Of a stretch of DNA of 33,027 nt, positions 1 to 29,913 are shown in pieces. The notes under the pieces are model-generated. The model was not told the origin of the DNA. It did not search any database and saw only the letters and a program-made list of their open reading frames with translations. The stretch is from Prevotella sp. (GTDB lineage Bacteria > Bacteroidota > Bacteroidia > Bacteroidales > Bacteroidaceae). The translations under genes were made by a program, and so were the position numbers. Positions within the stretch are counted from its first letter, which is position 1. The number at the start of each line of letters is the position of its first letter. The stretch is taken from positions 1 through 33,027 of the forward strand of contig JAFZSI010000018.1 in NCBI GenBank assembly GCA_017619445.1, in the 5' to 3' direction.

Positions 1-1749
1 GCTCAGGGTGGTATCAACGCTGCCAAGTGCTATCAGAACGATGGTGACTCTGTTTACCGTCTGTTCTACGATACCGTAAAGGGTGGTGACTATCGTGCTC
101 GCGAGGCCAACGTCTATCGTCTGGCTGAGGTAAGTAACAATATCATCGACCAGTGCGTGGCTCAGGGTGTTCCTTTCGCACGTGAATATGGCGGCATGTT
201 GGCCAACCGTTCGTTCGGTGGTGCCCAGGTGAGCCGTACGTTCTATGCCAAGGGACAGACGGGTCAGCAGCTGCTGCTCGGTGCCTATAGCTCACTGAGC
301 TGTCAGGTGAAGGCAGGCAAGGTGAAACTCTACACCCGTTATGAGATGGAAGATGTGGTCATCGTTGATGGTCGCGCCCGCGGTATCATAGCCAAAGACC
401 TCTGCACAGGTAAACTGGTTCGCTTCAGCGCCAATGCTGTGGTCATCGCTACTGGTGGTTATGGCAACACCTACTTCCTCTCAACCAATGCCATGGGATG
501 TAACTGCACCGCAGCCATCCAATGCTATCGCAAGGGTGCCTACATGGCCAATCCCTCTTACGTGCAGATTCACCCCACCTGTATCCCCGTTCATGGCGAC
601 AAGCAGTCTAAGCTGACGCTCATGTCAGAGTCGCTGCGTAACGATGGCCGCATCTGGGTTCCCAAGAAAATTGAGGATGCCAAAGCCCTGCAGGCTGGTA
701 CAAAGCAGGGTTGGGAGATTCCCGAGGAAGACCGCGACTACTATCTGGAGCGCCGCTATCCCGCTTTCGGTAACCTCGTTCCCCGTGACGTTGCTTCACG
801 TGCCGCCAAGGAGCGTTGCGACAAGGGCTTCGGCGTGAACAACACCGGTCTGGCCGTGTTCCTCGACTTCTCTGAGTCTATCAACCGTCTGGGTATTGAT
901 ATTATCATGCAGCGCTATGGCAACCTCTTCGAAATGTATGAGGAGATTACCGACGTATTCCCCGGCGACGTGGCCAACGAAATCAATGGTGTGAAATACT
1001 ACAAGCCCATGATGATTTATCCCGCCATCCACTACACCATGGGTGGTATCTGGGTTGACTACGAGCTGCAGACCTCTATTCCTGGCCTGTTTGCTATCGG
1101 TGAGTGCAACTTCTCTGATCACGGTGCTAACCGTCTGGGTGCCAGTGCTTTGATGCAGGGTCTTGCTGATGGTTACTTCGTGCTGCCTTACACCATTCAG
1201 AACTATTTGGCCGACCAGGCTGTATGGCCGAAGGTCAGCACCGATCTGCCTGAGTTCGATGAGGCAGAGAAGAAAGTTGATGCCGAGCAAGATCGTCTGC
1301 TGAACATCAAGGGTAAGCGTTCTGTTGACTCTATCCACAAGGAACTTGGCCACATCATGTGGGAGTATGTAGGTATGGGCCGCACAGCCGAGGGCCTGAA
1401 GACTGGTCTGAAGAAGATGCACGAACTGGAGAAGGAGTTCGACTCTAACCTCTTCGTTCCTGGCACTAAGGAAGGCCTGAACATCGAGCTCGATAAGGCT
1501 ATCCATCTGCGCGACTTCTTCACAATGGGCCAGCTCGTAGCTTTCGACGCCCTCTCTCGTAACGAGTCCTGCGGTGGTCACTTCCGTGAGGAGTATCAGA
1601 CCGAGGAAGGCGAGGCTAAGCGCGACGATGAGAACTACTTCTACGTTGGCTGCTGGGAGTACAAAGGCAAGGGCAACGAGCCCGAGCTCATCAAGGAGCC
1701 GCTGGAGTACGAGGCAATTAAGGTTCAAACCAGAAATTATAAGAATTAA
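1..1749 (+). CDS. frdA: Fumarate reductase/succinate dehydrogenase flavoprotein subunit, 5' truncated by window
   Basis: This is the catalytic subunit that interconverts fumarate and succinate at the inner face of the cytoplasmic membrane with covalently bound FAD. The frame is open from base 1, so the gene starts upstream of the window and the N-terminal FAD-binding motif is missing here; a GTG at 157 is internal. Visible family features are the QIHPT segment, the [10 protein letters not shown] segment that carries the catalytic arginine in this family, the [10 protein letters not shown] segment, and the GLFAIGE...[15 protein letters not shown]-binding region near the C-terminal third. The stop at 1747-1749 is 3 nt before a 58-aa ORF and about 180 nt before frdB. 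In Bacteroidales the membrane cytochrome b subunit usually lies upstream, outside this window. The family call is secure. The fumarate-reducing direction is inferred from the likely anaerobic host. Confidence 0.95.
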
Positions 1750-1752
1750 GAG

Positions 1753-1929
1753 ATGACGTTGAAAGAGCTTTTTTCAGAGTGGCAAGATCAGAAATGCCTA
1801 TTGATTGCTTGTATCATCTTAGATATAGCTATGATTGGTATGGGAAAGAGTTTATCTGTAGCAATCTCTGGGCTGTTGATGTTATTGTGTTTGATTTTAG
1901 CTTTACGCATCACTTATAAAAATAAATAA
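1753..1929 (+). CDS. 58-aa two-helix membrane protein wedged between frdA and frdB
   Basis: A complete ORF runs from ATG at 1753 to TAA at 1929. It starts 3 nt after the frdA stop and ends 2 nt before the frdB ATG, a spacing typical of translationally coupled genes. The protein begins with a charged stretch ([14 protein letters not shown]), followed by a hydrophobic helix at about residues 15-31, a short KS turn, a second hydrophobic helix at about 33-52, and a basic tail (RITYKNK). This predicts a helical hairpin with both ends in the cytoplasm by the positive-inside rule. It is visibly more AT-rich than the flanking frd genes. I do not recognise a family. Its position suggests an accessory or assembly factor of the membrane-bound fumarate reductase, but that is inference only. 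The alternative is a chance ORF in a spacer. Confidence 0.6.
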
Positions 1930-1931
1930 CT

Positions 1932-2690
1932 ATGGCAAAAAATATTAGTTTTACAATAAAGTTCTGGCGCCAGAACGGCCCCAAGGACCAGGGTCATTTC
2001 GATACTCACGAAATGAAGGACATCCCCGATGATACCTCCTTCCTTGAGATGCTTGACATCTTGAACGAGGAGCTCATCAACGAAGGCAAGGAGCCCTTCG
2101 TGTTCGACCACGACTGCCGCGAGGGTATCTGCGGTATGTGCTCACTCTACATCAACGGCACACCGCACGGACTCACCGAGCGCGGTGCCACCACCTGTCA
2201 GCTCTACATGCGCCGCTTCAACGATGGCGACGTGATTACCGTTGAGCCTTGGCGCTCTGCAGCCTTCCCCGTGATTAAGGACTGTATGGTTGACCGCAAC
2301 GCCTTCGATAAGATTATCCAGGCTGGCGGCTACACCACTATCCGCACCGGTCAGGCTCAGGATGCCAACGCCATCCTCATCCCCAAGGAGGATGCCGACG
2401 AGGCAATGGACTGCGCATCTTGCATCGGCTGTGGCGCTTGCGTAGCAGCATGTAAGAACGGCTCAGCCATGCTGTTCGTCAGCTCAAAGGTTTCTCAGCT
2501 CGCCCTCCTTCCCCAGGGTCGCGTAGAGGCCGCCAAGCGTGCCAAGGCCATGATGCTCGCTATGGAAGAGGCCGGCTTCGGTAACTGCACCAACACCCGT
2601 GCATGCGAGGCCGTCTGCCCCAAGAATGAGACCATCGCCAACATCGCCCGCCTGAACCGCGAGTTCATTAAGGCAAAGCTGGCTGACTAA
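1932..2690 (+). CDS. frdB: Fumarate reductase/succinate dehydrogenase iron-sulfur subunit
   Basis: This 252-aa subunit carries electrons between the membrane cytochrome b and the flavoprotein. The [2Fe-2S] ligands appear as C62, C67 and C70 (CREGICGMC) with C89. The second half has C164-x2-C167-x2-C170-x3-C174 and C219-x5-C225-x3-C229-P. By comparison with E. coli FrdB, C164, C167, C170 and C229 would hold the [4Fe-4S] cluster, and C174, C219 and C225 the [3Fe-4S] cluster. An extra cysteine at 161 precedes the motif. Length is normal for the family. It follows the 58-aa ORF by 2 nt and ends 10 nt before a perfect 11-bp terminator hairpin, so it is the last gene of the frd operon. Confidence 0.95.
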
Positions 2691-2700
2691 TGTATGTATT

Positions 2701-2733
2701 AGGTTGTGAGGTTATTTTGCCTCACAACCTTTT
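2701..2733 (+). terminator. Rho-independent terminator of frd operon
   Basis: Bases 2701-2711 (AGGTTGTGAGG) pair perfectly with 2720-2730 around an 8-nt loop, followed by a short T run. It lies 10 nt after the frdB stop. Confidence 0.9.
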
Positions 2734-2822
2734 CTCTCATCTCCATCGCTCCATTGCGGTGGTTGCTACCTTTATTATTTCTTACAGATTAGCGTTTCTG
2801 TTCGTACTTATATATAGATATT

Positions 2823-2990
2823 GAGCTTTTGCTCTTGTTCTTAGCATTCGAATACCGCCAAACATTCATCGCAAGAAGAACAAGCTGTTGAGAGTTCACG
2901 CTTGATAGGCGTGGACTATTCGTGCTTGTTTTTGCGAGAGGTCTACTTGGCGGTAACCAGAGTGCTGATAAGCATCGAATGGTTCCGCCT
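2823..2990 (+). ncRNA. Candidate structured RNA or leader element upstream of BspA-like gene
   Basis: The gap between frdB and the BspA-like gene folds into an extended rod with many matched segments. TTAGCATTC (2841-2849) pairs with GAGTGCTGA (2960-2968). TACCGCCAA (2853-2861) pairs with TTGGCGGTA (2947-2955). TCGCAA (2869-2874) pairs with TTGCGA (2932-2937). AACAAGC (2879-2885) pairs with GCTTGTT (2924-2930). A tip helix 2890-2901 pairs with 2909-2920 around the loop 2902-2908. A small GAGC-TTTT-GCTC hairpin (2823-2834) precedes the rod. Several pairs are G.U, which suits an RNA better than a DNA palindrome. The rod ends about 40 nt before the ATG at 3007, so it may be a 5' leader. It could also be an independent small RNA or a mobile palindromic element. 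I recognise no named RNA family. Confidence 0.45.
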
Positions 2991-3006
2991 TTTGATTTTC
3001 CATAAG

Positions 3007-4272
3007 ATGAAAAAAAGTATTTCCTGTTTATTTCTGATGTTGCTTTTCTCTGTTATTTTTTCTATATCAGTAAAAGCAGAAAATAATGTCATTATATCAT
3101 CTATTTCTACTAACGGTAACGATGGGGATGATGAGTATCATATAAATGATGTGATAGTAGAAACTGTTGATGGGGTGGAAATGGGGTTTATTGTAACATG
3201 TTTATCGCCAAAAACGGTGCAATTTGGAGGCTCTAAGTGTCAAGCCTTTAATCTAGGTAGCGGTATCAATCAGGAAACCTCTGGAAAAGTACGAATTCCG
3301 AGTGAAGTACGAGGTTTTCAAGTTACCCGTATAGCAGGTGGTGCTTTTTTTTGGTGTGAGAACGTTACTGAAATAGAAATACCAGAAACAATTATAGAAA
3401 TTGAAGAGAATGCCTTTTATTGTTGCGCTGGATTAAAATCATTGCATATACCCGCAAGTGTTGAGATAATAGAGGGAGCGAGGACTTTTTGGAGGCTTGC
3501 GGAAATTGAATCAATTACGGTAGCTGACGAGAACAAGTATTATAGTTGCCCACCGGGCAGTAATTGCCTTATCGAAAATGCTACAGGAACATTACTTCTT
3601 GGTTGCAAAAATTCGGTAATACCTAATAGTGTCAGGATTATTGGCCCATCTTCTTTTTCGCATCAAAAAGGAATAAATTCTATTGATATTCCAGAAGGTG
3701 TCAATACAATTGGTGATGCTGCGTTTTATGCCACAGGGCTTCGCCGTGTTGGACTTCCTAATAGTCTGACAACTATTGAAAGCATTGCGTTTGGCTGCTG
3801 TTTTAGCTTGAACCAAGTTAATTTGCCGCAATCATTAGAGTATATAGGAGATGGGGCATTTCACAATTGTATATTATTGGGGAGCATAATAATACCCGCT
3901 AAAGTCAATTATATAGAGCAAGACGCTTTTTTGTACTGTCCACTTAAAGAGATTATATCTTTAAGGCCAGAACCTATAGAAATATCAGATAAAGCATTCG
4001 TATATGATTATGATGATGACGAGGTACTTGATTATAGAACACAAGATAATGCCACTTTATATGTTCCCATTGGAAGTAAGGAAAAATATGAGCATGCAGC
4101 AGGGTGGAAGCTATTTAAGAACATCGAAGAGATGGATTTTTCGGCTATCAATTCAGTTTTGAAAGAAAAAGAAGATGATGAAATGTATTATAACCTATCT
4201 GGTCTTCGTTTGCAATCTATCCCTAATAAAGGTCTGTATATTTACAATGGGAAAAAACTATATGCCAAATAG
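3007..4272 (+). CDS. BspA-like leucine-rich repeat surface protein
   Basis: This 421-aa protein opens with a classic export signal (MKKSISCLFLMLLFSVIFS, processed near residue 24). It then contains BspA-type LRR_5 repeats of the pattern IPxxVxxIGxxAFxxCxxLxxIxIP between about residues 75 and 330. The tail (YYNLSGLRLQ...GLYIYNGKK) resembles the C-terminal sorting-like tail common in Prevotella secreted proteins. I chose ATG 3007 because the signal peptide begins there; the frame stays open back to a TTG at 2902, but that stretch lies inside the structured leader. BspA-like proteins often act in adhesion at the cell surface; a specific ligand cannot be read. The gene is AT-rich relative to its neighbours and sits beside a toxin-antitoxin pair, suggesting acquired DNA. 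Confidence 0.85.
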   Translation: MKKSISCLFLMLLFSVIFSISVKAENNVIISSISTNGNDGDDEYHINDVIVETVDGVEMGFIVTCLSPKTVQFGGSKCQAFNLGSGINQETSGKVRIPSEVRGFQVTRIAGGAFFWCENVTEIEIPETIIEIEENAFYCCAGLKSLHIPASVEIIEGARTFWRLAEIESITVADENKYYSCPPGSNCLIENATGTLLLGCKNSVIPNSVRIIGPSSFSHQKGINSIDIPEGVNTIGDAAFYATGLRRVGLPNSLTTIESIAFGCCFSLNQVNLPQSLEYIGDGAFHNCILLGSIIIPAKVNYIEQDAFLYCPLKEIISLRPEPIEISDKAFVYDYDDDEVLDYRTQDNATLYVPIGSKEKYEHAAGWKLFKNIEEMDFSAINSVLKEKEDDEMYYNLSGLRLQSIPNKGLYIYNGKKLYAK

Positions 4273-4301
4273 TGTGTTTCACATAGGGGGAAATCACTTC
4301 G

Positions 4302-4319
4302 GGCGGATTCAAATCCGCC
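4302..4319 (+). terminator. Hairpin after BspA-like gene
   Basis: GGCGGAT (4302-4308) pairs with ATCCGCC (4313-4319) around TCAA, 30 nt after the stop. No T run follows, so termination is uncertain. The core closely matches the stronger hairpin at 7741-7768, so the two belong to one hairpin family. Confidence 0.5.
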
Positions 4320-4332
4320 GCATACTGTGAAA

Positions 4333-4380
4333 TCAGAAAGAAAAAGAGCAGGAAAGGATCGCAACTCCTTTCCTGCTCTT
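4333..4380 (-). terminator. Terminator of the toxin-antitoxin operon
   Basis: AAGAGCAGGAAAGGA (4344-4358) pairs perfectly over 15 bp with 4366-4380 around a 7-nt loop. Read on the minus strand the stem is followed by a T-rich tract (TTTTTCTTTCT), 27 nt after the antitoxin stop. It may work in both directions. Confidence 0.85.
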
Positions 4381-4406
4381 ACTTTATCAATTTGGTATCC
4401 TCTAAA

Positions 4407-4730
4407 CTACCATAAGGCGACACGCCCCAAGCTTCCCAAGTCGAGACTTGCGGTTTTTACGCCAAGAGCCTTGAATGCCTTGACGATGGTGGCGAAGGTA
4501 ATACTTCGACCGCTTTCTATTTTGGAGACCTGAGCCTCTTGTACTCCCATTCGTTCACCAAGTTGTTTCTGGGTGAGTTGCTGTTGTTGGCGAGTATATT
4601 TGATGGCCATGCCAATTTTATATGCCTCAATTTCAGACTTTAATTTAGCCTCAAATTGGTCACGTCTTTTTGTACCCTTTTCGCCGACAACGGTGTCAAG
4701 CATTTCCTCGTGTGTATAAAAATTTTTCAT
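4407..4730 (-). CDS. XRE-family helix-turn-helix antitoxin (HigA-like)
   Basis: This 107-aa protein has an XRE/Cro-type helix-turn-helix at about residues 50-73 (LTQKQLGERMGVQEAQVSKI). It is preceded by a charged N-terminal region that resembles antitoxins paired with RelE/HigB-type toxins. Its ATG overlaps the stop of the toxin gene by 4 nt (ATGA), the tight toxin-first arrangement typical of higBA loci. Such antitoxins bind and neutralise the toxin and repress their shared promoter. A strong terminator follows. Which organismal function the pair serves cannot be read from the sequence. Confidence 0.85.
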   Translation of the reverse strand: MKNFYTHEEMLDTVVGEKGTKRRDQFEAKLKSEIEAYKIGMAIKYTRQQQQLTQKQLGERMGVQEAQVSKIESGRSITFATIVKAFKALGVKTASLDLGSLGRVALW

Positions 4731-5964: not shown

Positions 5965-7734
5965 ATGACTATGAAGAAGATTTTTACTTTTGTGATTTGT
6001 GCCCTGTTGGCTACTGCTGCATGGGCCGACGTGATTACGTTGGACATCAACAAGCCGATGAATCCAGCGAGTTTGGAGTTTGACGACAACGGCATATGGA
6101 CCGGGTGTTACAATGACGAGGACTACACATGGCTTGAATTCGGCGGAGAAGATGGTGAGTTCATGCTTTCACATCTCATTGACGGTGAGGGAGCCTCGTG
6201 GGGCGGTTATTATTGGGACGGTTTTACGCCTGCCATCGGTGGCGACCAGGCAGACCATTCCGACAGCTGGACCACAAAGTTTGGCGGTTGCATGGCTGGT
6301 GGCGGCTGTGTCATCAATGAGGACGGCACCGTGTCGGCAGACCCAGAAAAGCCTTATTTCGTGGCTTACTACAGCTCATGGACCTACGAAGGGCCCAGCA
6401 ACCAGGTGATGTTTGTCGATAAAGACGGCAACACCGAGTTCGAGCCTGTTGGTGTGTATGTCTGCAATCATCCTTGGCCCTATTATGGGTGTGTGCATGG
6501 TGATGGTTTTGGCAGTCCATTTGTTGAGGGCGACTACTTTGAGATTATTGCCCATGGTGTTGCCAGCGACGGCAGCGAGACCACCGTCTCGATGAACTTG
6601 GTTGAGTTTACCGATGGTGAGCTGAAAGCCGTAAACGACTGGACGTTCTTCGACCTCTCAAGTCTGGGCAAGGTTGAGTCGGTTTATTTCACGCTGAACT
6701 CCACTGACATAGGAGACTATGGCATGAACACCGCCGCCTACTTCTGCATGGACAATTTCCAGGTGAAGGTTGCTGATTCGGGCGTTGAGCCTATTGTCAC
6801 CACGGGTAATATTCTGGACGTGACCAAATCGTTAAATCCCGAGACCATTGAGTATGACGAAACCGGCATGTGGACTGAGTGCTACAACGACGTGGACTAC
6901 ACATGGCTTGAGTTTGATGCTGAAGATGGCGAGTTCATGTTGTCGCATCTCATTGATGGTGAGGGAGCCTCGTGGGGCGGCATGTATTGGGACGGCTTTA
7001 CGCCTGCCATTGGTGGCGACAAAGTTGACCATAGCCGTACATACGACGGAGGCTGGACCAAGAACTTCAGCGGTTGCATGGCAGGTGGCGGCTGTGTCGT
7101 CAGTGAGGACGGTACCGTGACGGCAGACCCCGAGAAACCCTATATTGTTGCTTACTACAGTTCATGGACAACGGAAGGCCCCAGCAACCAGGTAATGTTT
7201 ATAGATAAAGACGGCAACACCGAGTTCGAACCCGTTGGCGTGTATGTATGCAACCATCCGTGGGCCTATTATAATTGCTTGAATGGTGACGGTGCTGCCC
7301 GCGCCTTTGCCGAGGGCGACTACTTTGAGATTACCGCCCATGGTGTTGCCGCAGACGGCAGCGAGAAAACTGTCACAATGAACCTGGTTGAGTTTACCGA
7401 TGGTGAGCTCAAGGCTGCCAACGACTGGACATTCTTCGACCTCTCAAGTCTGGGCAAGGTTGAGTCGGTTTATTTCACGCTGAACTCCACCGATACTGGA
7501 GATTGGGGCATGAACACCGCCGCTTACTTCTGCATGGACCGGTTTGAGGTGAAGGTTGGTGAGTCTGGCGATCCGACAAGCCTCTCAACGATGAAGGCCG
7601 ATAAGGTGGTGACCGCTGTCCGCTATTCTAATCTTGCCGGAATGACCAGCGACAAGCCATTCAACGGTGTGAATGTTGTTGTGTTTACCTACAGCGACGG
7701 CACCAGCAGCAGCAAGGTTGTAATCAAGCGCTAA
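5965..7734 (+). CDS. Secreted protein with two tandem DUF4465-type domains, under B12 riboswitch
   Basis: This 589-aa protein has a signal peptide (MKKIFTFVICALLATAAWA; an ATG at 5971 is an equally good start) and no lipobox cysteine. Two nearly identical domains span about residues 22-270 and 281-532. Each has a SHLIDGEGASWGG block, a VGVYVCNHPW block, an EGDYFEI block, and a DLSSLGKVESVYFTLNST...GMNTAAYFCMD ending characteristic of DUF4465. The final 45 residues (SNLAG...SSSKVVIKR) look like a C-terminal sorting tail. DUF4465-type proteins occur in Bacteroidetes corrinoid-uptake loci. I recall B12-binding surface proteins (BtuH) of this kind but cannot confirm the match. Binding of cobamides at the cell surface is therefore a hypothesis supported by the riboswitch. 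The domain duplication looks recent. Confidence 0.85.
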   Translation: MTMKKIFTFVICALLATAAWADVITLDINKPMNPASLEFDDNGIWTGCYNDEDYTWLEFGGEDGEFMLSHLIDGEGASWGGYYWDGFTPAIGGDQADHSDSWTTKFGGCMAGGGCVINEDGTVSADPEKPYFVAYYSSWTYEGPSNQVMFVDKDGNTEFEPVGVYVCNHPWPYYGCVHGDGFGSPFVEGDYFEIIAHGVASDGSETTVSMNLVEFTDGELKAVNDWTFFDLSSLGKVESVYFTLNSTDIGDYGMNTAAYFCMDNFQVKVADSGVEPIVTTGNILDVTKSLNPETIEYDETGMWTECYNDVDYTWLEFDAEDGEFMLSHLIDGEGASWGGMYWDGFTPAIGGDKVDHSRTYDGGWTKNFSGCMAGGGCVVSEDGTVTADPEKPYIVAYYSSWTTEGPSNQVMFIDKDGNTEFEPVGVYVCNHPWAYYNCLNGDGAARAFAEGDYFEITAHGVAADGSEKTVTMNLVEFTDGELKAANDWTFFDLSSLGKVESVYFTLNSTDTGDWGMNTAAYFCMDRFEVKVGESGDPTSLSTMKADKVVTAVRYSNLAGMTSDKPFNGVNVVVFTYSDGTSSSKVVIKR

Positions 7735-9249: not shown

Positions 9250-9317
9250 TTTCATAAAGCATTGCTTTGCGCATAAATTTTCTAGAAAATTTGGAGCTAA
9301 ACCAATGCTTTGTGAAA
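9250..9317. repeat. 68-bp palindromic repeat, CTAG-centred family
   Basis: A 68-bp imperfect palindrome is centred on AAATTTTCTAGAAAATTT (9275-9292). The 34-nt arms match at 26 positions, including AAAGCATTG and TTTCA at the ends. Related copies with the same core lie near 19480-19610 and, in coding sequence, at 27232-27271. Confidence 0.75.
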
Positions 9318-9340: not shown

Positions 9341-9567
9341 AACTCGCAGCTTTACGTTCAAATTTTCTAACCTGAATTATTCTTGGAGTTATCTGGAGTT
9401 AACTGAAGTTATCGCGGTTTTCAACCGCTCCGGGAGTTAACTGACAATACTCTAGCTATTGTCCGCTAACTCCCGCTAACTCCCGATGAATTCGCAGAAT
9501 TCATATAACTCCCACTAACTCCCGTGAATAATATAAGCTAAAGAATTTCAACGTAAAGCTGCGAGTT
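9341..9567. mobile_element. 227-bp MITE-like inverted-repeat element
   Basis: The ends are a perfect 18-bp inverted repeat, AACTCGCAGCTTTACGTT (9341-9358) and its complement (9550-9567). Inside, the left half carries GGAGTTA units and the right half the matching TAACTCC units, and ACAATA/TATTGT flank the centre. The whole element therefore folds into one long imperfect hairpin. Each arm also has its own small palindrome (GCGGTTTTCAACCGC on the left, ATGAATTCGCAGAATTCAT on the right). It has no ORF. Target-site duplication is not evident. With the palindrome at 9250-9317 it fills most of the 521-bp gap 9158-9678, where I see no gene. Confidence 0.65.
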
Positions 9568-16830: not shown

Positions 16831-17724
16831 ATGTGGAACAAACCATGGACAATGAAAGAGGGCCTGACCATCGGTGCCGGCTTGATATGTGCGGGACTGC
16901 TGCTCGAAATGAGTGTCGGTGGAGTTGACTGGGATGCCTTTGCCTGGCCTGTCAACATCGTCGTGCTGGCAGGCTTCTTGGTTCTCATTACCGTCATTCA
17001 CCTGCTCAGGCGCAAAGTCTATGCCTTCCGTTTCCTGAGCACTTATCAGGCCGCCATTCCCACCATGCTCTATGCCGTGGTGCTCACCACCATCATGGGA
17101 CTCACACGGCAAACCGTCAACGGACAGTGGATTAACAACATGCTCAGCTTCTGGCCCTTCGTGCTCATCTATGTCTATATGGCCATGCAAGTGGGCTTGG
17201 TGGTGCTGAAAAGCCTGCGCCACATCAAAACACCCGGCAAGATAGTGGCCGCACTGTTCCATCTCGGCCTCTTCGTCGCCATGACCACCGCCACACTGGG
17301 CAATGCCGACATGCAGCGGCTGAAAATGATTACCGTTGCAGGCCAGCCCGAATGGCGCGCACTCAACGAGCAGCAACTCATCGTGGAGCTGCCGCTGGCC
17401 ATCGAACTGAAAAAGTTTATCATGGAAACCTACGACGACGGTTCGCCACGCCGCTTTGCCTCAGACGTTCAGATACTTACCAAATCGGGCAAAAACCTGC
17501 AAGCCACCGTCGATGTCAACAAACCCGCCAGTGTGGAGGGATGGAAAATTTATCAGTACGGCTACGACACTTCGATGGGCAAGCAAAGCAACGCCAGCAT
17601 TCTGGAACTGGTGAGCGACCCCTGGCTGCCTTTCGTCTATACGGGCATCTACATGATGCTTGCCGGTGCGCTGCTCATGTTCATCACAGGAGGCAGAAAA
17701 AAGAGGAGGGAGGAGAGAGAGTAG
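16831..17724 (+). CDS. ResB/CcsB-like cytochrome c biogenesis protein
   Basis: This 297-aa membrane protein belongs to the system II heme-attachment machinery, working with CcsA to deliver heme to apocytochromes c in the periplasm. Hydrophobic helices lie at about residues 11-28, 41-59, 76-91, 105-127, 138-157 and 266-287, and a periplasmic loop of about 100 residues ends in EGWKIYQYGYD, a ResB-type block. H143 lies in a membrane helix and could ligate heme. I chose ATG 16831 (MWNKPWTMKEG). The frame stays open to ATG 16732, but that region is a GC-rich hairpin just after a -7 box. The neighbours nrfHA are its likely clients, recalling the fused NrfI of Wolinella. Confidence 0.85.
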   Translation: MWNKPWTMKEGLTIGAGLICAGLLLEMSVGGVDWDAFAWPVNIVVLAGFLVLITVIHLLRRKVYAFRFLSTYQAAIPTMLYAVVLTTIMGLTRQTVNGQWINNMLSFWPFVLIYVYMAMQVGLVVLKSLRHIKTPGKIVAALFHLGLFVAMTTATLGNADMQRLKMITVAGQPEWRALNEQQLIVELPLAIELKKFIMETYDDGSPRRFASDVQILTKSGKNLQATVDVNKPASVEGWKIYQYGYDTSMGKQSNASILELVSDPWLPFVYTGIYMMLAGALLMFITGGRKKRREERE

Positions 17725-17730
17725 CATTTG

Positions 17731-17773
17731 TCCGCTAACTCCTGTTAACTCCCGCTAACTCCCGTTAACTCCT
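17731..17773. repeat. TAACTCC minisatellite between ResB-like and ccsA genes
   Basis: Four units of (G)(C/T)TAACTCC(C/T) follow each other at about 10-bp spacing, preceded by TTGTCC. The same TTGTCCGCTAACTCC string occurs in the right arm of the 9341-9567 element, so this looks like a partial copy. A C-rich ACACCC tract follows (17774-17795). Confidence 0.7.
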
Positions 17774-17801
17774 AAAACACCCAAACCCAACACCCGTAAT
17801 C

Positions 17802-19216: not shown

Positions 19217-19247
19217 CAAAGGTACGATTAAGTGAGCGAAAAACAAA
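19217..19247 (-). promoter_or_regulatory. Promoter of the LOG gene, with -33 box inside a repeat
   Basis: On the minus strand TTTG (19244-19247), a 19-nt spacer, and TACCTTTG (19217-19224) match the consensus fully. The -33 box and spacer lie in the first unit of the 83-bp tandem repeat. Confidence 0.8.
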
Positions 19248-19421
19248 AGGAAAGTCCCTTTTCTTTTGCTTTTCCGAACGTGAGTACCTTCGACGAAGTC
19301 AAAGTATGGATTAAGTGAGCGAAAAACAAAAGGAAAGTCCCTTTTCTTTTGCTTTTCCGAACGTGAGTACCTTCGACGAAGTCAAAGTTATGTATTAAGT
19401 GAGCGAAAAACAAAAGGAAAG
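19227..19421. repeat. 83/84-bp tandem repeat carrying promoter-like boxes
   Basis: Units start with ATTAAGTGAGCGAAAAAC at 19227, 19310 and 19394 (periods 83 and 84); the first two are full and nearly identical, the third breaks off near 19421. Each unit holds a near-perfect hairpin (CAAAAGGAAAG with CTTTTCTTTTG). On the minus strand the third unit start forms TTTG-N20-TAACTTTG (19383-19414), and the second forms a weaker version (19300-19330). The rest of the gap up to 19822 holds the palindromic repeats described separately, and no gene. Confidence 0.85.
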
Positions 19422-19467
19422 CCTTCTTTTTATGCGCCCCGTTTTCACAGAATCGCCATTTAGATTT

Positions 19468-19635
19468 CCAAAGCATTGCTTTACGAATGCAAAGCGTAGG
19501 TTTACGCATAAATTTTCTAAAGAATTTAAAACTATTGTTTGGGTTGCTATCAGATTCTCTAGAAAATTTGAATCCAAAGTATAGGTTTACGAGCGTAAAG
19601 TGATGGTTTGTGAGCATAAAGTGTATGTTTACGGA
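19468..19635. repeat. Cluster of CTAG-centred palindromic repeats
   Basis: Two copies of the palindromic family lie side by side. One is centred on AAATTTTCTAAAGAATTT (near 19511-19528) and the other on GATTCTCTAGAAAATTTG (near 19553-19570). They are flanked by repeated GGTTTACG/CGTAAA and CAAAG arms. The arms resemble those at 9250-9317. Confidence 0.65.
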
Positions 19636-25208: not shown

Positions 25209-28010
25209 TCAATAGGGCGAAATGTTGTTGAGTTCTTCCAACTGTTGTTCGTCTGTTGCGTTGGTCATCATGCTTTTCAGTTCGGAGAGCGACACTTGCG
25301 CCTTTGGATTGAAACTCTCGCTGTGCATATACTCGAGCACACTGCGGTAGAACTGTCGGCCCTCGGGCCAGCGCGCGGCCTCTTCCAGTTTGCTCATGCA
25401 CACCAGCAGCCGGCCTTTGCCCACGCTAAACTCCATGACAAGCCCCAGCTTGTGGCTGCGCTCAATGTTGTCTATCACCTGTACCATGGGGAAATAGTTC
25501 TGGGGAAACGCATCGAGAATCAGTGGGCGCGAGAATGTGATTACCGGCCACCACTGCCAGTTGGTGTGCTCATCGGTGGGAAAAGCGTTGAACAGCGCGT
25601 GGCGCGGATTGCACAGGATGCCCATGGTGCCAGGAGAAACCGTTTTTTTGTTGTTCTCGCAGATGGTGCGGAACATGCGGTAGTTCCAGTAGTCGGTCTG
25701 GAACAGCGGCCCCAGCGTATTGTCGGCCATTTCTGCAGAGTCGGGCATCCAGAGCACACGTGCGCCCCGTTTAAGTTTTTTGCCGATTTCATCGGTCATT
25801 CGGTTGGTAACCACAATGTCTTTTTTCAGTTTTTCCAACGACGGATTCTGCGGATACGACCACAGGTCATAGTGGTTCCAATGGTTCCCTTTGTCAATCG
25901 TCAGGCTAAGTCTCAGCTGCTTGGCCTCACCGTCATCAGTCAGTGGCAGGCTGATTTGCTGCACGTTGATGAGCCCTTCCTCGTCGCTGTCAATCATGAA
26001 GGTCTGTTCTTGCAGCGGTTTGTATAGATACTTGCCGTTGCTGTCATCCACCGCCCGCTGTGCAAGCACCAGCTGCAGCGTTTCACCGCGAAGAGAACGG
26101 CCACCGTAGTTGGCCACTTTCAGCGTGCCACAGATAGCCCCTTGTTCCCCGGTGGGGGTTGAGCTGCTCGTGAAGCAAAGACTGTCTGCCACGAACAGCG
26201 GCACCACATCTGCACAGAATCCGCTCCATGTCTCGGCGCTCATCAGGTGTTTTGTCTCCATGAAAGCGTCGAGAATACCCACATAAGCACTGCCCTGACC
26301 AGGATAATCCTGCAGGTCGAGCAGCTGAAAACCTGCCATCCGCTCGCTGCGCAGGTTCATTTCAATGTCAGCCTTGTACAACAATGCGCTCCAACGGCCC
26401 GATGCACGGTGGAAAGCCTTCGATTGGTTGGCCATACCTTTGGCGCGCAGCCGCCGTTGAAACTCCTCCAGGTTGTAGGGAGCCAGCACACCTTTATACT
26501 TTTTTATCTCATCGTAGTCGGGATAAATCTGAAACTGCCCAGTTTCATGTCCAATGACGGGAATATTGCACAAAGCCGCCGCATCATCGAAATTCGCCGA
26601 TGAATTGGGGCGGAAATGATTCAATATGCCGCCCTCAAAGGCATCCGCAAACGAGAAAGAGGCGCGTGTGTGGGTGTTGTAGCTTCCCCAGGCCTCACCA
26701 CCAACACGGCAGGTGGTGAAGTAGTCCATACCGGGCTTCGCACCCTGATAGCCCAAATAGAAGTTCGAGCCGAAAGTGTAGAGCTTGTCGGGTGCTATGC
26801 GTCGGAAATCTTCGATGAATTCGCCCATTTTCTCAATGCTTCCCCACAGTTCGTTGCCCAAAGCAAACATCACGAACGACGGATGATGGCCATACCAGCG
26901 CAGAATGTTCTCGCCCTCTTTGTGAAGATAGGCCATGAGTGTGGTATCCTTGGCATTGAAGTCACCCCAAAATGGCAGTTCGGGCTGCAGATAGATGCCC
27001 AGACGGTCGGCCATCAGGAAACAGGCCTCTGGAGGGCACCATGAGTGAAACCGTATGTGGTTGATGCCGTACTGCTGACAGGTTCGCAGGTATTTAAACC
27101 ACGACAATGTGTCCATCGGCACGTGCCCCGTCAGTGGCCAAACACAGGCATCGTGCTTGCCGCGCAGGAAGATACGGTGGCCATTGGCATAGATATGCTG
27201 CCCACGTATGGAGAGCTTTTTACAATGTGTGGGTTTAGCATCAAATTCTCTAGAAAATTCAACGCTAAACCTATCCTTTGCGATGCTAAAGTCTGCTGTT
27301 ATGATTTCAATGCGCCCAATTATGCCGTTCCAATTGGTCTGTGTGTCTTCGGTGCAGGCGTGTGAATTGGCGAGAATCTGCTGCGGCATGTGGGCTGCGC
27401 TGTTGTCGATGGCAATGGTCAGCGTGTGGGTGCCGGGTTTAAGCCCTTGGCCAAGCAGATAGACCTGCGGGGTGCTGATGTCGGTGCTGCTGCCAGCCTC
27501 ATGGCCGTCAATCCACACGGTGGCGGGCTTGGTGCGCTCCAGGAACAGATAGACGTACTTCTGTTTCCAGTTTTTGGGAATGTCAAATGTGCGTCTGTAC
27601 CAAGCACGCCCCACATAGCTGTAGCGACGCGACAGGTGGGTGGTCTCAACCCCTCCTGGCCTCCCCAAAGGAGAGGAAATCTTAAGGTTTGTACACGGTG
27701 TGCCTTTAGATAATCCGCTCACGCTCGGCCAACTCCAAGCAAGCTTGGTTGGCTCTCGCTTAATCGCGGATTTCTGGTTGGTGTCGGTAGTACCAGGCAG
27801 ACGCACAGTGTCGTCGAGCGGAGACGTAAAAGAAAGTTGACCTTCCGGGTCAAGGGCAAACTGCCACTCTCCCGAAAGGTCAATACGTTGTGTGCTGTTA
27901 ACCCCTCCTGGCCTCCCCAAAGGAGAGGAAATGTCTTGTGCCGCGACGGCAGTGGCAGAAAGCCACGCCATCAGCACAAGCATAATACTTCTAAAAACTC
28001 GTCTTTTCAT
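25209..28010 (-). CDS. Secreted GH2 glycoside hydrolase with in-frame repeat insertions
   Basis: This 933-aa exported enzyme has a signal peptide (to about residue 24), a GH2 sugar-binding domain (about 44-235, with LPGTTDTNQ and YVGRAWYRR), and a TIM barrel with GNELWG (acid/base E387) and IGHETGQFQ (candidate nucleophile E489). Specificity, galactosidase-like or other, cannot be read. The gene is odd in three places. SSPLGRPGGV occurs twice (residues 28-37 and 112-121), coded by an identical 33-bp repeat. About 35 extra residues (83-121) interrupt the sugar-binding domain. The immunoglobulin-like domain expected between IGRIEI (232-237) and the barrel (from about 265) is replaced by about 25 residues coded by a palindromic repeat. 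It starts 9 nt after the endonuclease gene. Activity is uncertain. Confidence 0.85.
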   Translation of the reverse strand: MKRRVFRSIMLVLMAWLSATAVAAQDISSPLGRPGGVNSTQRIDLSGEWQFALDPEGQLSFTSPLDDTVRLPGTTDTNQKSAIKREPTKLAWSWPSVSGLSKGTPCTNLKISSPLGRPGGVETTHLSRRYSYVGRAWYRRTFDIPKNWKQKYVYLFLERTKPATVWIDGHEAGSSTDISTPQVYLLGQGLKPGTHTLTIAIDNSAAHMPQQILANSHACTEDTQTNWNGIIGRIEIITADFSIAKDRFSVEFSREFDAKPTHCKKLSIRGQHIYANGHRIFLRGKHDACVWPLTGHVPMDTLSWFKYLRTCQQYGINHIRFHSWCPPEACFLMADRLGIYLQPELPFWGDFNAKDTTLMAYLHKEGENILRWYGHHPSFVMFALGNELWGSIEKMGEFIEDFRRIAPDKLYTFGSNFYLGYQGAKPGMDYFTTCRVGGEAWGSYNTHTRASFSFADAFEGGILNHFRPNSSANFDDAAALCNIPVIGHETGQFQIYPDYDEIKKYKGVLAPYNLEEFQRRLRAKGMANQSKAFHRASGRWSALLYKADIEMNLRSERMAGFQLLDLQDYPGQGSAYVGILDAFMETKHLMSAETWSGFCADVVPLFVADSLCFTSSSTPTGEQGAICGTLKVANYGGRSLRGETLQLVLAQRAVDDSNGKYLYKPLQEQTFMIDSDEEGLINVQQISLPLTDDGEAKQLRLSLTIDKGNHWNHYDLWSYPQNPSLEKLKKDIVVTNRMTDEIGKKLKRGARVLWMPDSAEMADNTLGPLFQTDYWNYRMFRTICENNKKTVSPGTMGILCNPRHALFNAFPTDEHTNWQWWPVITFSRPLILDAFPQNYFPMVQVIDNIERSHKLGLVMEFSVGKGRLLVCMSKLEEAARWPEGRQFYRSVLEYMHSESFNPKAQVSLSELKSMMTNATDEQQLEELNNISPY
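27232..27271. repeat. CTAG-centred palindromic repeat inside the GH2 gene
   Basis: GGTTTAGC (27232-27239) and GCTAAACC (27264-27271) flank an AAATTCTCTAGAAAATT core, symmetric about 27251.5. It is read in frame in the GH2 protein as the SVEFSREFDAKP segment. It belongs to the same family as 9250-9317 and 19468-19635. Confidence 0.75.
27648..27680. repeat. 33-bp direct repeat, copy 1 (in GH2 gene)
   Basis: Identical over 33 bp to 27900-27932. The minus strand reads SSPLGRPGGV in frame (residues 112-121). The CCTCTCC...GGGGAGG core can fold back on itself. Next to it (27714-27766) is a second palindrome-rich stretch, CCAACTCCAAGCAAGCTTGG, also in frame. Confidence 0.85.
27900..27932. repeat. 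33-bp direct repeat, copy 2 (in GH2 gene)
   Basis: The second identical copy, 252 bp from copy 1, coding for SSPLGRPGGV just after the signal peptide (residues 28-37). The G-rich end of the remnant at 5895-5921 resembles the same repeat imperfectly. Confidence 0.85.
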
Positions 28011-28019
28011 CCGCGAAGA

Positions 28020-29801
28020 TTACTTCACTACCTTCTTGCCGCCAATGATATACACTCCGCGCGGCAGTGTGGCGGTGGTGGTCACCATCTGGCCGTTGAT
28101 GTTGTAAACCTTTGCACTTTGAACTTTGACCTTTGAACTTTCAATGCTCTCAATGCCGTCGCCGGGGCTTTCCGAGGTTTGGATGTAGAGAGCCACAGGC
28201 TGCTGGCTGCTGCCCTGCTTGTAGCAGCGGAAGCGCATCTGGTCGTTGGCTGTATTGAAGCGGATGGCATACGAGGTCTTCTTGTTGATGATGTCGGCAT
28301 TGCCGTCACCGCCGATGCTGATGCTCCATTGTGCAGAGGTGTCATCGCCCGAAGAAGCCGTCTCAATGTTGTTCTTCGTTGCACTGTGTGCCAAGTAGGT
28401 GTCGCCACCTGCGCAGATGGTCCAGTTGTCGTTGCTCAGCTTTGTGAGAACCAGCGGCAGGCTGCCCTCCTCGATGGTTTCATCGGTGATAGTGACGCTC
28501 TCACCGTTGTTTGCCTGGTCGGCGGCAACACTCATGGCATAACCATTCGAGCTGCTTTCCTCAAAGACGAGCAGGTAGTTGGCTCCGCTCACCAGGTCGT
28601 CGGTGCTGTTCACACGCACATAGCTGCCGTCGCCAGCAGGTGGATTGTCGCCACCCGGCTTAATAGTGAACTTCTGCTCGGCTACGGCACTTTGACCTTC
28701 ATCGGTCACGGCAATGGCCTTGACAGTGGTAGTTTCAGTTATGTCGAACGGCTCTGTGTAGAGCTCGCTGTCAGTGGTAGGTGTGCTGCCGTCGAGGGTG
28801 TAGTAGATGCTTGCGTCATCGGCGCAGCTGATGGTGATGGTGATACTGCCGTCCTCGTTTGTATAGCTGTCGAAGGTGGGCTTAGCCAGGTAGGCCACGC
28901 TGCTGTCGTAGTTGTCGTAGCTGAACGGCTGGTCAACCTTGTCGCCCCAGATATAGTCTTCCAACCCCGGGTAATCCACGAAGGGGTTGCGGTTATTCTG
29001 CACCTCATAAACAGCGTTGTTTCGGGCAATCTCAATTTCATCTACGGGATCCAGTTCCGACCAGCGTAGTAGCATGTCAAAATACCACTGTTTGTAAGGC
29101 TGGTATTTTGTGCCTCCGTTGTGGTCAATCACGACTGCAGCCGTTGCTGAGGCGTCGTTTTTGCCCTTCCAGTTCAGAATGAGATTCTCGTAACACGTGG
29201 CCATGTAGAAGTAGATGCGGGCAATGTCGCCCTTAATTTCGTCGTTCGGCTCAAACACAGTGCCCGTGTAGCCAGGTGTCTTGCACGTTCCCTTCAGGCA
29301 ATAGGTGTATGACCATCCGCTATTCACGCTGCCCACCTCGGCAAGAGGCAAGTCACCGCGCAAATTGTTCAGTTTAGAGTCCGTGGGCACCACATGCACG
29401 ATGTCGCTTTTCATGGGCGATGCTTCCTTGAACCAGCTCTGTGGAATGAGGTGCTCCTTGTTCCAGCCACCGCTGTTCCAGTCGTAATTGGAGGTGTTGT
29501 CATACCAGTCGCGCAGCTTGCCATCAGCCCGCTTGTCGGTGGTTTTGTACTTTTCTTCCAGATTTTTGTAGGGAATCGTGGTGTGATTCTTAATGATATT
29601 GAAAAGTGCAGTCTTCAGTTCTGCACCGCTCAGTCCGTCGGCGTTCATGTAATACGAGCCGCTGCCATTGGGTGCGGCCTTATGAACGGTCGTGTTCTGA
29701 TGGGAAAACGCCGAACTCTTTGAACCGCGAATGTCCTGGGCGCAAACAATTACGCCTAACAGTCCAAAGAGGATTGTGGTAAAAAGGTATTGTTTCTTCA
29801 T
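28020..29801 (-). CDS. Secreted endonuclease I with chitobiase-like domain and C-terminal tail
   Basis: This 593-aa protein has a signal peptide (MKKQYLFTTILFGLLGVIVCAQ) and an endonuclease I domain (about residues 45-290). The catalytic region is WNKEHLIPQSWF (E116, H117), with SDIVHVVPTDSKLNNLRGD (about 132-150) and EPNDEIKGDIAR (about 185-195), the metal and DNA-binding blocks of this family. A chitobiase-like beta domain follows (about 302-385, YYTLDGSTPT), then a beta-rich domain (about 390-550). The tail VYNINGQMV...GVYIIGGKKVVK looks like a sorting signal. It likely degrades extracellular DNA, either for nutrition or from biofilm. I chose ATG 29801 because the signal peptide starts there. 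A short AAAGTTCAAAG repeat (28108-28143) codes for the KVKVQSAKV linker. Confidence 0.9.
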   Translation of the reverse strand: MKKQYLFTTILFGLLGVIVCAQDIRGSKSSAFSHQNTTVHKAAPNGSGSYYMNADGLSGAELKTALFNIIKNHTTIPYKNLEEKYKTTDKRADGKLRDWYDNTSNYDWNSGGWNKEHLIPQSWFKEASPMKSDIVHVVPTDSKLNNLRGDLPLAEVGSVNSGWSYTYCLKGTCKTPGYTGTVFEPNDEIKGDIARIYFYMATCYENLILNWKGKNDASATAAVVIDHNGGTKYQPYKQWYFDMLLRWSELDPVDEIEIARNNAVYEVQNNRNPFVDYPGLEDYIWGDKVDQPFSYDNYDSSVAYLAKPTFDSYTNEDGSITITISCADDASIYYTLDGSTPTTDSELYTEPFDITETTTVKAIAVTDEGQSAVAEQKFTIKPGGDNPPAGDGSYVRVNSTDDLVSGANYLLVFEESSSNGYAMSVAADQANNGESVTITDETIEEGSLPLVLTKLSNDNWTICAGGDTYLAHSATKNNIETASSGDDTSAQWSISIGGDGNADIINKKTSYAIRFNTANDQMRFRCYKQGSSQQPVALYIQTSESPGDGIESIESSKVKVQSAKVYNINGQMVTTTATLPRGVYIIGGKKVVK

Positions 29802-29882
29802 AATTAGTATTATTTTGGTTATTCTCTGTTTTAGTTTCAGTGAAACACCAGTCACAAGACGGCGAAACGTGCATTCATGTTG

Positions 29883-29913
29883 CAAAAATAATCAGAAAAA
29901 CAATAACTTCAAA
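29883..29913 (-). promoter_or_regulatory. Promoter of the endonuclease-GH2 operon
   Basis: On the minus strand TTTG (29910-29913), a 19-nt spacer and TATTTTTG (29883-29890) match the consensus. A leader of about 75 nt precedes the ATG at 29801. Confidence 0.8.

Follow-up and report, generated by a model that had tools for sequence, protein, structure and literature searches.

In-frame insertion of repeats into bacterial genes is known from the Rickettsia palindromic elements (RPEs) of Rickettsia and Wolbachia, which are about 100-150 bp long and for which, in the available excerpts of those reports, the protein was made and active in one tested case, guanylate kinase (PMC2229807, PMC10969869, PMC3767692). 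Repetitive extragenic palindromes (REPs) of the GTAG/CGTC type are 20-40 bp palindromes that occur singly or as inverted dimers and have been found, in several species, within open reading frames (ORFs) that include those for repair proteins and tRNA synthetases; the accessible part of that account places most of them between genes, gives CCTC as a frequent tag variant and reports CGTC REPs from Bacteroidetes without a known mover (Di Nocera 2013, PMC3733652). A further point of comparison is VsrA of Caulobacter, a DUF559 protein which the excerpts of its description give as a predicted Vsr-like mismatch-repair nuclease (PMC12907096). Here we analyze a gene for a glycoside hydrolase family 2 (GH2) enzyme in a stretch of 33,027 nucleotides from Prevotella sp. 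(GenBank assembly GCA_017619445.1, contig JAFZSI010000018.1, positions 1 to 33,027), referred to below as the window. It is very probable that this gene carries, in frame, dispersed palindromic repeats that settle in loops and linkers, with a main unit that is possibly a relative of the ends of a DUF559 element.

The ORF encodes 933 amino acids (aa) and is stop-free. Its product matched the Pfam families Glyco_hydro_2_N (PF02837; E 2.6e-7, 31.2 bits, over the cut-off of 28) and Glyco_hydro_2_C (PF02836; E 5e-4, 19.7 bits, just under the cut-off of 21), and its N terminus, read by eye, is signal-peptide-like. A preliminary description of this DNA had claimed that three kinds of repeat-derived segment are translated within the one enzyme, that one of them is an identical 33-bp repeat present twice, and that the frame stays open through all of them. 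These claims held. The two 33-nt copies have identical sequences and are read in the same frame, no stop interrupts the 933 codons, and each of the three kinds belongs to a dispersed family of the same genome. The insert that had been placed at residues 83-110 is the 68-nt palindrome at residues about 80-102, whereas residues 103-110 (GTPCTNLK) look native. The CTAG-centered palindrome assigned to residues about 245-262 is present at close to that range and is likewise a member of a dispersed family, but it is not a clean insertion, as the linker of the homologues is variable there. Its hairpin stem (27232-27271) has 18 predicted pairs with G-U counted; as DNA only 32 of 40 positions are self-complementary, so the palindrome is not perfect. 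Folding was compared with that of shuffled sequences: a 101-nt stretch containing the 68-nt palindrome gave z -2.8 and a 71-nt stretch containing the CTAG palindrome gave z -4.7, while the 33-nt copies folded alone were unexceptional (z -0.07 and -1.1).

Coordinates of the GH2-family gene, its translated inserts and further copies of the CTAG palindrome core in the window
Feature	Position	Strand	Evidence or remarks
GH2-family enzyme gene, host of in-frame inserts	25209..28010	-	ORF, Pfam, genus homologues
33-nt GC-rich palindromic repeat, copy 1	27900..27932	-	residues 27-37 = ISSPLGRPGGV, right behind signal peptide
33-nt repeat, copy 2	27648..27680	-	residues 111-121 = ISSPLGRPGGV, ahead of ETTHLSRRYSY
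68-nt palindromic element	27706..27773	-	translated KSAIKREPTKLAWSWPSVSGLS, residues about 80-102
CTAG-centered palindrome	27222..27284	-	translated IAKDRFSVEFSREFDAKPTHC, residues 243-263; outer limits estimated
CTAG palindrome core, other copy	9275..9292		0 mismatches
CTAG palindrome core, other copy	19510..19527		2 mismatches
CTAG palindrome core, other copy	19552..19569		2 mismatches

The GH2 protein was aligned with 29 homologues from the genus that are 57-65% identical to it. The first 33-nt copy was missing from all 26 homologues that cover its site, and the 68-nt element together with the second 33-nt copy was missing from all 27 that cover that region. Sharing of these segments by homologues, which the preliminary description had named as the outcome that would speak against insertion, was thus not seen in the genus set for either the 33-nt or the 68-nt inserts. 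Residues 122-933 align with the homologues without a stop. By our reading of the alignment, the layout upstream would be TNQK, 22 aa (66 nt, the palindrome), GTPCTNLK, 11 aa (the 33-nt repeat) and ETTHLSRR, where GTPCTNLK resembles native linkers such as GFPCTNKQ in one homologue (L027). Given this layout, each insertion comes to a multiple of three. At the site of the CTAG segment, the clade L010-L028 has a short and variable linker in place of the Ig-like domain that others carry, and other species have repeat-like fillings of their own at this place (tandem GRPQG units in L032 and SSLFTLNSSLY-type strings in L012 and L014). Because this linker varies among homologues, there is no clean empty site for the CTAG hairpin. 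A search of 398 genus genomes for a nearer GH2 relative, whether its site was empty or filled, found none: 41 genomes, that of the window included, matched at E ≤ 1e-300, with a best non-self identity of 65% and alignments that start at residues 100-122. Six further loci from this search (L320-L325) were left out of the alignment.

The genome that contains the window (G000) is a 2.87-Mb draft in 81 contigs and is 85% complete; the gene contexts of repeat copies are based on ORFs. The 33-nt core was found at eight places with ≤3 mismatches and a wider pattern gave 20 copies, compared with none for the reversed control in either case. Nineteen of the 20 copies are in frame in ORFs of ≥200 aa; the remaining copy, in L118, is not. 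Glycosidases are frequent hosts: the present GH2 enzyme (two copies), a GH3 (two), a LacZ-type GH2 (two), another GH3, another GH2 and the tail of a GH53 enzyme. The other hosts are CTP synthase, ketoacyl synthase (two copies), an alpha/beta hydrolase, a tetratricopeptide-like protein (named by eye) and a response regulator in which the copy lies between the receiver and LytTR domains. Four of the 19 in-frame copies sit in BspA-like C-terminal tails (named by eye) and are not independent, as their hosts are paralogous. Pfam domains were confirmed in nine of the host ORFs in this genome. A wider context scan gave 72 repeat matches with ≤3 mismatches in 48 loci, 50 of them in ORFs of ≥200 aa, with some matches counted twice where stretches overlap; the cases from genome G152 were not used in the argument because they include partly doubtful ORFs around inverted pairs. 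Separately, the locus L123 (contig C49 of G000) has at 3-4499 a single 1499-aa frame in which a LacZ-type GH2 is continued by an alpha-L-fucosidase domain and which carries several repeat-derived segments.

Copies in coding sequence are rare in the other two families. The 68-nt element had 26 matches in the genome including its own (E ≤ 3e-10, 84-100% identity), and the GH2 insert is 97% identical in DNA to its best two copies elsewhere. Three of 25 copies examined lie in predicted genes and only the GH2 copy is convincing. A general coding role for this family was rejected: the copy in L047 probably precedes the real start codon, and the ORF in L061 is short and doubtful. The 18-nt CTAG core was found at 334 sites versus one for the control (the GH2 copy has two mismatches), and one of 15 exact copies examined lies in a predicted gene. 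We know of no mover or function for the CTAG-centered palindrome with the AAATTTTCTAGAAAATTT core. In the genome-wide count of coding and intergenic copies that the preliminary description had proposed, the in-frame copies of the 33-nt family, together with the absence of the inserts from homologues, support its suggestion that repeats of these Bacteroidales can enter coding sequence. Note that TTAACTCCCGC-type repeats are present at positions 9453-9514 and 17722-17783 of the window and that elsewhere in the genome runs of this type directly precede the 68-nt palindrome, which suggests that the two form a composite element.

The main family has a unit of ~31 nt, CTCCTCCCCTTYGGGGAGGYCGGGAGGGG, which comes to 33 nt with its flanks in the GH2 gene. 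The ends of the unit are sharp and the flanks random, a pattern shared by the 20 G000 copies and by 99 distinct copies that represent 80 of the 115 phylum stretches listed. None of its six frames contains a stop, and the peptides encoded are rich in Ser, Gly and Pro or charged, and linker-like. The exact window variant of the 33-nt repeat was found in none of the contigs searched, whereas the commoner consensus was found in at least 115 stretches, several from the same genomes. Judged by their titles, 114 of the 115 stretches listed are Bacteroidota and one is titled bacterium only; cultured strains of Gillisia, Aequorivita, Psychroflexus, Salegentibacter, Flavobacterium and Breznakibacter are among the carriers. 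Among the matches listed, predicted genes hold 50 of 120 distinct phylum copies compared with 1908 of 2300 random positions, indicating that the unit is depleted in genes and tolerated in frame, and 28 of these 50 genic copies use the SSPxGRxGG frame. The housekeeping hosts in the phylum include LeuRS, CarB, phosphoglycerate mutase (iPGM), TsaD, HemW and MetRS, some of them in cultured strains such as Gillisia limnaea DSM 15749 (HemW) and Psychroflexus curvus (LeuRS).

CTP synthase gives a ready natural series for measuring the cost of an inserted repeat. The G000 genome has one match at E ≤ 1e-20, so this is probably the sole, needed copy, as judged in a genome of the completeness given above. 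CTP synthases were aligned from 30 genomes; the other 29 share 75-90% identity with the G000 protein in the part that matched. Among seven pairs, five had a computable dS, and in these dN was 0.10-0.15 and dS 1.4-2.1. Across the 30 genomes loop A has 8-50 residues and loop C 19-56, and in four of the genomes a third loop is filled as well. The longer fillings resemble translated repeats and are not the same from species to species. The matches in L165, L167, L168 and L182 run over a stop, which the reading frames used place beyond the conserved end. Loop A of the G000 enzyme is encoded by a gene-less 74-nt inverted pair, two GC-rich hairpins whose 31-nt arms differ at four positions and are separated by a 12-nt spacer, and in loop C a unit of the 33-nt family stands next to a more diverged one.

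The nuclease domain DUF559 (PF04480) was found in frame within four LeuRS loci among the first 80 stretches (E 5e-33 to 1e-37), and it is present in 121 of 200 genus genomes, G000 included. Among the matches listed, 45 of 150 DUF559 copies lie in ORFs of ≥280 aa. We inspected 26 fused cases rather than all 45; 22 were from genus genomes, and the LeuRS loci and L311 were among the rest. Hosts were assigned by Pfam for ten and named by eye for the others. The domain lies inside LeuRS (three sites), an ABC-F ATPase, MazG, an epimerase (two genomes), an AAA helicase, a GAF protein and, in a single-contig genome, a DegT aminotransferase, and it is fused before IspF, an amino-acid kinase, a methyltransferase-like protein and guanylate kinase (L346 of G000 plus five other loci). 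In L346 (contig C70, 60300-63500) the linker between the N-terminal DUF559 and guanylate kinase contains two copies of the terminal repeat of the element that face each other, with a third copy upstream. Linkers at the edges of DUF559 (PLPSGGVGGG, APSNSPKGGE and similar) are GC-rich palindromes. When matches of score ≥16 between the two 200-nt flanks were compared with those between swapped flanks, 14 of 25 fused loci (L311 left out) had inverted repeats on the two sides of DUF559 versus 38 of 600 swapped pairs, and four of 25 had direct repeats versus two of 600. In 17 mostly free-standing DUF559 loci, inverted repeats were detected in 13, versus 32 of 272 swapped pairs. Of 43 DUF559 copies, 42 retain the motif E(V/I/L)DGxxH.

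In a FastTree tree (midpoint-rooted, no support values) the DUF559 copies at LeuRS site 1 fall in three separate branches, so DUF559 apparently entered this site repeatedly. At the same site, where L250, L262 and L284 carry DUF559, L270 has an inverted repeat pair and no nuclease. In chain 1h3n, which we take to be the Thermus enzyme, site 1 is a short native loop. Pfam scans of the four LeuRS and ten fused proteins (E ≤ 1e-5) gave no intein or Hint family, and for this reason DUF559 appears to stay in the host protein.

The ~31-nt unit and DUF559 were found together in several ways. DUF559 is present in seven of the 115 stretches fetched by the repeat alone (863 kb; L237 is weak), where the rough expectation at the genus density of DUF559 is less than one match, a density that may differ outside the genus. 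In L250 a mismatch-free unit (degenerate pattern) directly adjoins DUF559; in L160, L311 and L145 the distance between the two is ≤160 nt. The terminal repeat of the DUF559 locus L340 (AGCCCCCTCCGACCTCCCCCCGACGGGGGAGGC) has the arm-GA-hairpin layout of the 33-nt unit. Genomes that contain the repeat have DUF559 in 28 of 34 cases versus 93 of 166 for those without (Fisher p 0.004, uncorrected for phylogeny or completeness). That the 33-nt unit is kin to the DUF559 terminal repeats is the weaker part of our interpretation, suggested by this architecture and by a few adjacent cases, all fetched by the repeat.

We propose that copies of the ~31-nt repeat moved into protein-coding sites and that copies which broke the frame or the fold would have been removed by selection. 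As the six frames are open, the peptides linker-like and the net length a multiple of three, insertion would leave a slightly longer, probably working protein. Less firmly, the unit may be akin to the repeats that end an element encoding the DUF559 Vsr-like nuclease; DUF559 may supply the cutting step for repeat movement and is, we infer, its most likely source. Inverted repeat pairs without DUF559 could then be forms of this element that resemble miniature inverted-repeat transposable elements (MITEs), or emptied forms of it. The 68-nt and CTAG families would be separate, mostly intergenic palindromes that reached the same GH2 gene, and we propose no mover for them. More tentatively, in a reading we find possible and somewhat harder to credit than to doubt, Bacteroidota would have a class of mobile element in which a DUF559 nuclease lies between GC-rich hairpin ends and is read through in frame. 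Full elements, emptied pairs and single repeats would then sit unspliced inside essential enzymes, the nuclease as a permanent domain of its host and the repeats as linkers, and the 33-nt repeats of the GH2 gene would be single ends.

Several observations weigh against this interpretation. The phylum-wide count of genic copies relative to random positions indicates that the unit is not directed to coding sequence. We saw no transposition and no empty site in a close relative, as the nearest GH2 homologue is 64-65% identical, and translation of the inserts is an inference. All five loci with a mismatch-free unit ≤400 nt from DUF559 (L250, L160, L311, L145 and L217, the last two being the same place) were fetched by the repeat; of 20 loci fetched by DUF559, only L330 has a nearby unit, and that unit has four mismatches. 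Six of the 34 repeat-bearing genomes are without DUF559, and 93 of the 166 repeat-free genomes have it. No inverted pair was detected at score 16 in 11 of the 25 fused and four of the 17 free-standing DUF559 loci.

Loops could also have been filled by slippage or by repair templated on abundant repeats, with no dedicated mobile element; this would account for the unrelated repeat-like strings, some of them heptamer-like, that fill the same kinds of loop (NSSLFTLHSSL, NTQHPTP and IDNGQLTIDNS). We consider this process unlikely, while giving it real weight, as the source of the ~31-nt unit, which is sharp-ended with random flanks in 99 phylum copies, and inverted repeats flank a nuclease whose motif is kept in nearly all copies. 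A process of another kind would be movement as REP/REPIN-type elements by a REP-associated Y1 tyrosine transposase (RAYT), with in-frame copies as ordinary by-products. The unit is a palindrome in the 20-40 bp size range, inverted pairs about 59-157 nt apart are found in several genomes, and intragenic REPs are known, as far as the available text of PMC3733652 goes. The consensus, however, has neither GTAG nor CGTC. G000 gave no Y1_Tnp match over the cut-off, at its 85% completeness, and only a sub-threshold match of 20.8 bits; G026, with 21 copies and 99% completeness, is without Y1_Tnp; and among 24 hand-picked genomes Y1_Tnp was over the cut-off in eight of 12 with the repeat and seven of 12 without. 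Since G000 gave no Y1_Tnp over the cut-off and repeat load showed no clear relation to Y1_Tnp among these 24 genomes, RAYT was rejected as the mover, and this explanation seems to us improbable.

There is very little to suggest that the segments are native, ancestral variable loops that resemble repeats by chance or bias. The CTAG segment does lie in a linker that varies among homologues, but the exact 33-nt duplicates within the gene, the 97% identity of the 68-nt insert to two copies elsewhere, the reversed-pattern controls of 0 and 1 and the absence of the inserts from homologues make this reading exceedingly improbable, and for inserts 1 and 2 the duplicates, controls and homologues rule it out. 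That the GH2 gene is a decaying pseudogene or an assembly chimera is also highly improbable: although the draft is fragmented and incomplete, 933 codons are open through four inserts, residues 122-933 align without a stop, and like inserts are found in cultured strains and in a single-contig genome. Insertion of dispersed palindromic repeats in frame is the interpretation we prefer for the GH2 gene.

Other repeats were noted in the window. The gene next to GH2 (28020-29885, minus strand) ends in IESSKVKVQSAKVYNINGQ, a translated simple repeat of the CTTTGAACTTTGACC type located near 28100-28150. This repeat lies in the linker before the C-terminal tail, and in other genes of the same genome (L003-L006) the same linker holds other repeats. 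Positions 19217-19480 contain about three tandem copies of an ~83-bp repeat, upstream of a gene that we assigned by eye to a DEAD-box helicase, and the gene at 5965-7734 has an internal duplication with 80-83% DNA identity over blocks of 218 and 300 nt.

No published account of the Bacteroidota ~31-nt family or of in-frame DUF559 was found in the literature searched, subscription journals being mostly outside that search. The kind of event is already known, as RPEs and intragenic REPs occur in frame; the Bacteroidota family and the possible class of DUF559 element would be new. If our interpretation is correct, repeats that invade proteins are not peculiar to Rickettsia and some species rich in REPs but give a phylum-wide source of new loops, linkers and whole inserted domains in a group abundant in gut, rumen and sea, and the DUF559 family gains a possible role. 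In practical terms, repeat-made segments of Bacteroidota enzymes can pass as native to gene callers, alignments and structure predictions.

The preliminary description had likened the GH2 inserts to the in-frame palindromic elements of Rickettsia. Compared by description, the likeness is one of kind of event rather than of membership, as length and hosts differ. In the excerpts available, RPEs are palindromic repeats of several families found in frame in many unrelated conserved genes, and the Bacteroidota repeats are likewise in frame in conserved genes and missing from homologues. In contrast to RPEs, the Bacteroidota units are ~31-33 and 68 nt, outside the 100-150 bp length given there, and the main unit is open in six frames and has a candidate nuclease partner. 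With REPs the main unit shares a 20-40 bp palindrome dispersed through the genome, whereas its consensus has neither GTAG nor CGTC on either strand. The consensus does contain CCTC. Its hairpin, with GC pairs at the start of the stem and a 3-nt loop, is nevertheless unlike the CGTC families described in the accessible part of the REP account, which also differ in the share of copies in coding sequence (19 of 20 in G000) and in the association with DUF559. Like a MITE with an autonomous partner, the inverted pair in loop A of CTP synthase resembles a small relative of the DUF559 element that has similar ends, although the candidate partner is a PD-(D/E)XK Vsr-like nuclease and not a standard transposase. 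Homing endonucleases and inteins likewise have a nuclease domain in frame inside essential genes, and here LeuRS was hit repeatedly; in contrast to them, no Hint family was found in the proteins scanned and DUF559 is bounded by repeat-like linkers. VsrA of Caulobacter belongs to the same DUF559 domain family, but the available excerpts of its description (PMC12907096) mention neither repeats nor insertion into other genes.

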